Assembly: GCA_938074335.1 (NCBI GenBank) | Contig: CALJEL010000024.1 | Location: 1-52,345, forward strand | DNA: 52,345 nucleotides | Reading direction: 5' to 3' | Origin: an uncultured bacterium | GTDB lineage: Bacteria > Nitrospirota > Thermodesulfovibrionia > Thermodesulfovibrionales > CALJEL01 | In this document: positions 49,333-51,439 of the stretch, piece by piece | Layout of the letters: each line of letters starts with the position of its first letter | Position numbering within the stretch: the stretch's first letter is position 1 | The notes under the pieces: generated by a model | What the model was told of the DNA's origin: nothing | The model's database searches: none | What the model saw: the letters and a program-made list of their open reading frames with translations, nothing else | Made by a program: the position numbers and the translations under genes

Positions 49333-49902
49333 TCATTTCTTGCCTCTATGTGTTGCAATTGAGACTATTTTAAAGATATCTTCACCCTTTTTAAGGGCTT
49401 CTAATAGATTTTTAAACATATAAGCTGTTTCTAAATTAGTTTTTTCTTGCAGCATTAATAATCTTGCGAGGAGTATTAAAAACTTAATGCTATATTCACC
49501 TTTTTTGCCTAAGTCTTCAAATTCTTTAAATTCTTTTTGATTGATTTCTGAGAGATATTTAATATTTAGAATATTTTCTCTCTCTTGAGCAGATCTTATA
49601 GGCTTAATTTCATCCCACATATTTAGCAGGAAATCTAAAAATTCTTGGGTTTTACTTTTATCGGCATGCATTTTTATTAGAATATCAACAGCCCAATGAA
49701 TATGTTTTGGTGTCCTAATGTTTGACCAACCATTTTCATTTTTCTGTCTATATCTTATGAGAATATCGTATTTGCTTATGGTTCCCTGATAAACTGCGAT
49801 AATAAATTTTTCATTTATCTTGGTAACAAATAAAGGAACTATCTTTTCCCCTTTCTTTTTAAAAGACATAAAAGTGAATAATTCTTTATCTTTATCATTC
49901 AT
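49333..49902 (-). CDS. Unrecognised protein paired with a DNA methyltransferase
   Basis: Not recognised. A 189-residue soluble protein, Lys- and Ile-rich. Features seen are an N-terminal beta-rich part (KIVPLFVTKINEKFIIAVYQ), the segment IRTPKHIHWAVDILIKM and a helical C-terminal half. I see no PD-(D/E)XK, HNH or GIY-YIG motif. The gene starts 10 bp after the methyltransferase stop and is similarly AT-rich, so the two look like one transferred pair. It may be a restriction subunit, a methyltransferase partner or an immunity factor; none can be chosen from the sequence. Confidence 0.65.
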   Translation of the reverse strand: MNDKDKELFTFMSFKKKGEKIVPLFVTKINEKFIIAVYQGTISKYDILIRYRQKNENGWSNIRTPKHIHWAVDILIKMHADKSKTQEFLDFLLNMWDEIKPIRSAQERENILNIKYLSEINQKEFKEFEDLGKKGEYSIKFLILLARLLMLQEKTNLETAYMFKNLLEALKKGEDIFKIVSIATHRGKK

Positions 49903-49912
49903 GGTTATTTTA

Positions 49913-51439
49913 TTATCCTTTCTGCAGTTTTACTGTTGCCACCTTGTAAACTAAAAGATATTGATGCACAATTTCCAAGTTTTTTTGATTTTTTATAAAT
50001 TTATCCTTATGGTTGTCAATTGTAATTATCACTATCTCTTTTAAGAAAAAACCTGGAAGGTCTATATAATCAACTATATATTTAGCTACCGGTATTATAA
50101 AATCTCCGATTCTGATATCTCGGGTTTGAATTACACAATATCCACTATCTTTGATATATTGACTTTCCTTTATGAGCATATCTTTTAATTGCCTTAAATA
50201 TGCATTAATCTCTGCTTCGGATATATCTGTGTTGTTTAAACAGGGGGATTTAATAAATAAAAGATTTAATTTTTTTAGATAAGATAGCGAGTTTTTTTCG
50301 GTTTTGATATTTTTAACAAGGTTTATTATTCTATATGGCTTGCCATCTCTGTATCGTTCTATTACATTTTTATCTAACAGTTCTTCAAAACAATGTTCAG
50401 GAAATATCCATACTGTTGTAGTTTCCAGTTGAGGTGGTTTTCTTTTGGGAACTGATTTTGCAAGCTGTGGATGGATTATCCCGTAAGTTAAAGGTGTTTC
50501 TTTTAAGGTTAGTTCTGCAATTGGTTTTTCAAAAACAGGTAGATATTCATGAGCAAGTAGTAAAAAATTATATTTAATGCTGTTTTCATACCAGAAACCT
50601 GTGGTTTTACAGTTATGCTGACGTTTAATCACAAGTTCTTTTAATTTAAAACCAGCATTAAGAAAAATATTTATAAGTTTAAATCCAAGCGGAATTACAT
50701 GTTTATGCCTTCTCATATCACCTATTAAAATTGCACATTGATGTCCTGGTTTTAGAACTCTGTAACTTTCACGAGCTACCTTTTCCATTTCTTTTAAATA
50801 ACTATCAAATTCAAGGAATGAGAGGTCTCCATTCTTGTGGTTGGTATAATGAATAATGTTTGCATAAGGAGGATGGGCGCAGATCAGGTCAATAGATTCG
50901 TCTTTTAAAAATGATAGGTCTCGGGCATCGCCAACGAATAATTCAGGCTCGTAGATTGGCTCATATGCTCTCTGCTCCACAGGTATTGTAAAGTCAATGT
51001 TTTTGCGTGCAAGCTCAATAGCCTTCTCATTAATATCAAAGGCAATACATTTCCTCCCAAGTAGTTTTGCCTCCGTAGCAGTAGTTCCTGCCCCGCAGAA
51101 GTAATCTAAAACTATATCTCCTGGTTTTGAATATTTTAAAATTACATTTCTTGGAATATAGGGCGACCAATTTCCTCTATACTCTCCGCTGTGGGTTGCC
51201 CAATCTCCTCTACTTTTGAAGCTCCAAACACTAGTAGTTTCTTCTTTGAAATCCCTGGGAACAAACCTCTTAATTTTTTTCTCTTTCTTTATTGAACTTA
51301 TACTTACCCCTGTTGCTTTTCTTAATATTTTTTCAAGCTGACGAAAAGTTATTTTATACTTTTTGCCTATCTCTATATCAGACATACCATGTAACTTGTC
51401 AGCTATGATTGCTTCTTCCAACTTTGTATTTTGTTCCAT
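49913..51439 (-). CDS. DNA N4/N6-type methyltransferase with N-terminal HTH and degenerate second half
   Basis: A 508-residue predicted site-specific DNA methylase. Residues about 7-50 form a helix-turn-helix (EAIIADKLHGMSDIEIGKKY). The SAM site is LDYFCGAGTTATEAKLLGRK (motif I, about 111-130), and the catalytic motif IV is HPPY at 189-192 in place of the usual (D/N/S)PPY. Residues about 208-270 (DSYLKEMEKVARESYRVLKP to NAGFKLKELVI) resemble 411-471 (NAYLRQLKDMLIKES to PGFFLKEIVI). SPC near 398 replaces HPPY, so the C-terminal half looks like a decayed duplicate that may bind DNA. Base composition is more AT-rich than the neighbours, which suggests transfer. Confidence 0.85.
   Translation of the reverse strand: MEQNTKLEEAIIADKLHGMSDIEIGKKYKITFRQLEKILRKATGVSISSIKKEKKIKRFVPRDFKEETTSVWSFKSRGDWATHSGEYRGNWSPYIPRNVILKYSKPGDIVLDYFCGAGTTATEAKLLGRKCIAFDINEKAIELARKNIDFTIPVEQRAYEPIYEPELFVGDARDLSFLKDESIDLICAHPPYANIIHYTNHKNGDLSFLEFDSYLKEMEKVARESYRVLKPGHQCAILIGDMRRHKHVIPLGFKLINIFLNAGFKLKELVIKRQHNCKTTGFWYENSIKYNFLLLAHEYLPVFEKPIAELTLKETPLTYGIIHPQLAKSVPKRKPPQLETTTVWIFPEHCFEELLDKNVIERYRDGKPYRIINLVKNIKTEKNSLSYLKKLNLLFIKSPCLNNTDISEAEINAYLRQLKDMLIKESQYIKDSGYCVIQTRDIRIGDFIIPVAKYIVDYIDLPGFFLKEIVIITIDNHKDKFIKNQKNLEIVHQYLLVYKVATVKLQKG

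Follow-up and report, generated by a model that had tools for sequence, protein, structure and literature searches.

A two-copy DNA methyltransferase and a partner protein of an unnamed family from GATC-type restriction-modification operons in an uncultured Thermodesulfovibrionales bacterium

The window, by which we mean the whole stretch of 52,345 nucleotides analysed here (contig CALJEL010000024.1 of an uncultured bacterium of the Thermodesulfovibrionales), carries near its end two open reading frames on the minus strand, separated by 10 bp, which correspond to the methylase and the 189-residue partner described in the initial annotation. Details of the features are presented in Table 1. Among the 39 ORFs of at least 150 aa in the window these two are the AT-richest: the methylase gene has a GC content of 0.281 (z -3.9) and the partner gene one of 0.330 (z -2.5), the mean being 0.417, which bears out the earlier remark that the pair is more AT-rich than its surroundings. 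It had also been described as closing a housekeeping repair operon, and this is not the case: a radical-SAM gene precedes the pair by 12 bp, and a DUF1284 gene follows it after 151 bp, with RmuC next, all on the same strand. No convincing insertion repeats were found around the pair, the flank matches being short, imperfect or AT-rich. The DUF1284 gene has no match in the same-genus genome G192, so that a comparison with an empty site could not be made.

Table 1. Positions in the window of the two genes and of the features within their products.
Feature	Position	Strand	Evidence
DNA methyltransferase, 508 aa, N6_N4 type with degenerate second copy	49913..51439	-	profiles, alignment, model, BLASTP
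HTH-like three-helix N-terminus, residues 2-43	51311..51436	-	model; without family match
Intact methyltransferase domain, residues 53-305	50525..51283	-	PADLOC PDLC03376 E 3e-95
Presumed SAM-binding motif I DYFCGAGTT, residues 112-120	51080..51106	-	alignment
Presumed catalytic motif HPPY, residues 189-192, invariant 10/10	50864..50875	-	alignment
Second, degenerate half of the methylase, residues 332-508, lacking the SAM motif and with SPC opposite HPPY	49916..50446	-	C-terminal-half search, model, BLASTP
Partner, 189 aa; its family, without a name, is that of GATC-type restriction-modification operons	49333..49902	-	ORF, relatives, loci, model
Partner signature RTPKHIHWAVD, residues 63-73, invariant in alignment A1	49684..49716	-	alignment

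As judged from its sequence, the longer protein is a DNA methyltransferase. Its intact domain matches the whole length of the PADLOC type II methyltransferase model PDLC03376, and the Pfam family N6_N4_Mtase (PF01555) is matched with an E value of 9.7e-34 and 117.7 bits, the curated cut-off being 26.7. DYFCGAGTT, which we take to be the SAM-binding motif I, and HPPY, presumably the catalytic motif, are both located within this first domain. DPPY, NPPY and SPPY are the commoner motifs in this place, and HPPY had earlier been read as non-standard. However, HPPY and the GxGTT core of motif I are invariant in all ten aligned relatives, seven of which are single-domain proteins, and HPPY is therefore a normal mark of this methylase family and not a sign of decay.

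The other two peculiarities that had been pointed out in this protein, an N-terminal HTH and a C-terminal half resembling a decayed catalytic domain, are both recovered. Helices are predicted at residues 2-16, 21-28 and 32-43, giving an HTH-like segment in the model which none of the libraries searched names. The two halves match each other in BLASTP with an E value of 5e-9 and 25% identity, and a search of the genome with the C-terminal half returns the first half of the same gene (E 9.9e-6). The AlphaFold model, with a moderate pLDDT of 69.9, shows the same succession of strands and helices in the second copy, whose SAM-binding half is reduced. A fold search with this model gave single-domain methyltransferases as the best matches, and no listed match covers both halves well.

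Of the 240 genomes searched in the phylum, nine have the degenerate half, one of the nine only as a weak match. We compared eight full-length long methylases, including those of the window and of a Patescibacteria locus (L035). The gene following the methylase encodes the partner in three of them (the window, L035 and G093, apparently Thermodesulfovibrio sp. N1, L052), DpnII in two (G164 and G148), a DpnII fragment in one (G203) and an unknown protein in two (194 aa in G109 and 456 aa in G158). The site in Thermodesulfovibrio sp. N1 lies between pheA-like and hisC-like genes, named by eye. In G203 (L148:3800-5585, G203:C123) the long HPPY methylase and the DpnII fragment of 93 aa lie between trpB-like and trpA-like genes, also named by eye, and look like a restriction-modification cassette within an operon for biosynthesis. 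In another genome the degenerate half is encoded on its own, as a protein of 201 aa (L110:3685-4290; G047:C1, about 1887684-1888289), apparently between purB and fusA (by eye) and without an active half alongside. Three long methylases (L107:2877-4493, L149:997-2613 and L108:3553-5133) contain an extra zinc-finger-like segment (CPIC...H...H) ahead of the HTH-like segment.

The partner belongs to a family which is unnamed in every family library searched. No reliable family match was obtained against Pfam, NCBIfam, PADLOC or PDB sequences, and the MutH/Sau3AI profile PF02976 gave no match at E values up to 1. Two weak matches were set aside, phage_ECs1072 (NCBIfam, E 0.0074) and DUF6978 (Pfam, E 0.14), which recur in only 1 and 2 of 62 members, respectively. 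SeqA is a GATC-binding protein of a length similar to the partner; it was considered as well, and its family is absent from the matches of the Pfam scans. In alignment A1, from which L049, L052, L062, L072, L080, L084 and L102 as well as the short L045, L094 and L100 were omitted, the charged residues D46, R63, K66, H67, H69, D73, K77, E153 and K154 are invariant. The invariance of the signature listed in Table 1 is partly built in, since the peptide patterns with which relatives were searched included KHIHWAVD.

The structural model of the partner is good (pLDDT 89.2, pTM 0.85) and consists of a small beta-sheet followed by helices. Foldseek searches with this model returned nothing at or below an E value of 0.001, the best being 0.3 in the PDB and 0.054 among viral structures. 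VIA-align gave a best Z of 5.4 (N-terminal domain of OSCP, helices 66-173), which is within the range that the tool calls common, and a Z of only 3.3 for the restriction glycosylase R.CcoLI. The modelled protein thus appears without a significant fold match, although its fold is not thereby shown to be new. According to the part of the HEPN survey available (PMC3710099), the Rx4-6H motif of HEPN RNases ends helix 3 of a helical bundle. The spacing R63-x5-H69 of the partner fits this rule, but in the model the motif comes after the beta-sheet and opens helix 67-80, and the Pfam scans showed no match to a HEPN profile. The initial annotation had seen no known nuclease motif in the partner, and profile and fold searches agree in giving no nuclease family or fold; no housekeeping family was matched either. 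We found no description of the partner in the open-access literature.

A peptide-pattern scan of 84,980 species genomes identified 71 relatives of the partner, with 35-70% identity in the best segment. The hosts, by name, are Patescibacteria, Bacteroidota, Aquificota, Treponema, Melainabacteria, Clostridia, Zeta- and Gammaproteobacteria and others. In the phylum of the window the partner is present in only 2 of 245 genomes, and in the class of G277 in only 1 of 345, namely G277 itself. This sparse presence together with the high identity across phyla points to horizontal transfer. The pair occupies a different genomic site in each relative examined, so that no fixed place emerges from the comparison of neighbourhoods. 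The earlier suggestion of a mobile epigenetic unit derived from restriction or defence is therefore well supported by the rarity of the partner in the phylum, its identity of up to 70% in distant phyla, the varying sites of the pair and the families of the GATC-type operons described below. No partner was found in phage and plasmid records, and viral contigs contained neither the long methylase nor the partner. One relative is a protein of 258 aa (L062:7998-8774) whose N-terminal part is apparently duplicated (33% identity, query residues 10-89).

The neighbourhood of the partner was classified in 71 loci, comprising the window and 70 others (L100, in which no partner ORF was recovered, was dropped; L042 and L043 are apparent near-duplicates). 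The labels D12, DpnII, betaA, HPPY and partner come from small HMMs built here with five seeds each, of which two D12, one beta and five DpnII seeds were verified in Pfam. A gene of a GATC-type system adjoins the partner in 70 of the 71 loci, within 60 bp in 67, and a methylase lies within 4 kb in 70, the exception being L105, where the contig ends right after the partner. Within the same distance DpnII is present in 44 loci, a MutH-like gene in four (by a model made from a single seed, with L105 scoring 21.0 bits, below the Pfam cut-off of 23) and neither in 23. By class, 37 loci contain D12, DpnII and a beta methylase, 15 D12 only, four D12 and beta, four D12, DpnII and HPPY, three HPPY only, three D12, HPPY and MutH, two D12 and DpnII, one beta only, one DpnII and beta, and one, at a contig edge, MutH only. 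GATC is the site for which the DpnII, MutH/Sau3AI and D12/Dam families are known, and most contexts of the partner therefore share this site rather than a single enzyme fold.

Operons of the GATC type include HPPY methylases at L037, L049, L093, L095, L098, L101 and L102, and also in Fusobacterium vincentii (L213:2363-5729 of NZ_CP084075.1, a record labelled as plasmid yet 2.1 Mb long). There D12, DpnII, an Mrr-like protein of 272 aa (by eye) and an HPPY methylase stand in a row without the partner, the Mrr-like protein being another extra gene in a GATC-type operon.

Searches across the whole genome of the window (G000) gave no match to DpnII (PF04556; one control genome positive), D12 (PF02086; four control genomes positive) or MutH (PF02976). 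A complete restriction system, as had been considered for this pair, is therefore unsupported as far as members of the DpnII and MutH families are concerned. Genome-wide searches for 21 of the 22 other loci without a local DpnII or MutH found no DpnII in 19 of the 21 genomes and no MutH in any; the two exceptions for DpnII are the genomes of L094 and, with a weak partial match, of L060. With the window included, 20 of 22 genomes are without DpnII anywhere and all 22 without MutH, absences which are no proof since many of these genomes are metagenome assemblies. The observed/expected ratio of GATC is 0.56 in G000 as compared to 0.59 in G192, which is without the pair, and GATC avoidance is thus uninformative on active restriction. 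In the window and 20 contig pieces of G000 (322 kb), CTAG and ACGT are strongly avoided (0.06 and 0.18, against 0.39 and 0.56 in G192), which suggests other restriction pressures. A second N6_N4-like methylase of G000 (L106:434-1593, G000:C86) is split into ORFs of 180 and 191 aa, with DSPY as its likely catalytic motif.

Co-variation of the partner was analysed by mirror-tree in the 34 loci with one copy of each of the four genes above the length limit. Partner distances follow those of D12 (r 0.842, partial 0.765) much more closely than those of DpnII (r 0.345, partial -0.073) or the beta methylase (r 0.539, partial -0.034). In 29 of the 34 loci DpnII lies between D12 and the partner, and in these alone r is 0.796 for D12 and 0.549 for DpnII (bootstrap difference 0.14 to 0.36). 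The partner tracks D12 rather than DpnII, which indicates the modification side, although shared inheritance of the cassette could contribute to this co-variation.

We favour, with a probability of roughly 0.45, the reading that the pair is a GATC-type modification unit, acquired horizontally and derived from DpnII-like systems but without their endonuclease, and that the partner is an accessory of the modification side. The first methylase domain would then most likely methylate GATC, a target suggested by the operon partners of its relatives, and the dead second domain would most likely serve as a built-in dimer partner or as a DNA-holding domain. The partner would most likely help to complete or protect the modification by binding either to the methylase or to GATC sites of a particular methylation state. 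The step from operon partners to biochemical roles, that is, to GATC as target, to direct binding and to an accessory function, is one that we infer from sequence. The accessory role has a precedent in Prevotella intermedia where, according to the portion of the report available (PMC5608340), a hypothetical gene overlapping a different methylase was needed before methylation was obtained in E. coli. However, about 20 genomes in which neither DpnII nor MutH was found have a methylase with one tightly linked partner, and a methylase-nuclease pair would look the same; the invariant charged residues of the partner would suit an active site.

The principal competitor deserves to be taken seriously, even if we would not bet on it: the partner might be a GATC-directed nuclease, or another effector, of unrecognised fold, in which case the pair would be a complete two-gene system and DpnII systems would have two effectors. 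It keeps substantial weight because the partner takes the very position after the long methylase that DpnII has in G164 and G148. The 23 of 71 loci with a methylase and the partner but neither DpnII nor MutH within 4 kb, the rarity of DpnII elsewhere in such genomes and the many invariant charged residues are consistent with it as well. However, 44 of the 71 loci already have the DpnII endonuclease, which would make a further nuclease of this specificity redundant, and the searches with the partner matched no nuclease. The co-variation with D12 and not with DpnII also speaks against it, with the caveat that a second nuclease is likewise expected to travel, and could co-vary, with the methylase.

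The partner is unlikely to be an operon regulator, acting like a controller protein or by inhibiting the nuclease, that stayed with the methylase in the window as a remnant. Its presence within the operon in 70 of 71 loci, whatever the methylase class or nuclease family, would be expected of such a regulator, but it matches no DNA-binding family, is retained in loci without a nuclease and, as an inhibitor, should track DpnII, contrary to the partial correlation above. Still less probable is a decaying, functionless remnant of a lost restriction-modification system, which would fit a genome without a DpnII/MutH nuclease, one degenerate methylase half, the frameshift of the partner in Thermodesulfovibrio sp. 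N1 and the truncated DpnII of G203, but not two full-length open frames with intact SAM and HPPY motifs or the conservation of the degenerate half itself in nine genomes of the phylum.

Compared with known systems, the favoured modification unit is closest to those of the DpnII/MboI type, which consist of a D12 methylase, a second methylase and the PF04556 endonuclease: the partner family and single-domain HPPY methylases sit in such operons, and DpnII accompanies relatives of the long methylase. In contrast to them, the genome of the window lacks DpnII, MutH and D12 and its methylase is two-copy, and to our knowledge the DpnM/DpnA/DpnB operon of Streptococcus is without the partner. Unlike other PDLC03376/PF01555 methylases, the protein in the window adds an HTH-like N-terminus and a degenerate second catalytic half. 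METTL3-METTL14 combines an active with a dead methylase subunit; the window protein would be alike in logic only, as an active domain with a dead copy, and differs in having both halves within one bacterial protein. The methylase thus comes from a known family, its architecture being unusual, and the type of system around it is known as well; it is the partner family that the libraries searched leave without a name. We tentatively put forward the partner as a new component of one of the most thoroughly studied restriction-modification types, either a GATC nuclease of new fold or an obligate modification cofactor, which would serve systems with D12, beta or HPPY methylases and with DpnII or MutH and could be maintained together with just a methylase as a mobile epigenetic unit.

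The partner is a conserved extra gene in many operons of GATC methylases and DpnII-type nucleases, which are themselves textbook enzymes, and is spread over many phyla. If it aids modification, it may explain why certain cloned methylases are inactive alone; if it cuts DNA, it would be a nuclease of unrecognised fold. The single-chain methylase, with an active and a dead domain in tandem, would offer a compact model for paired methylase domains.
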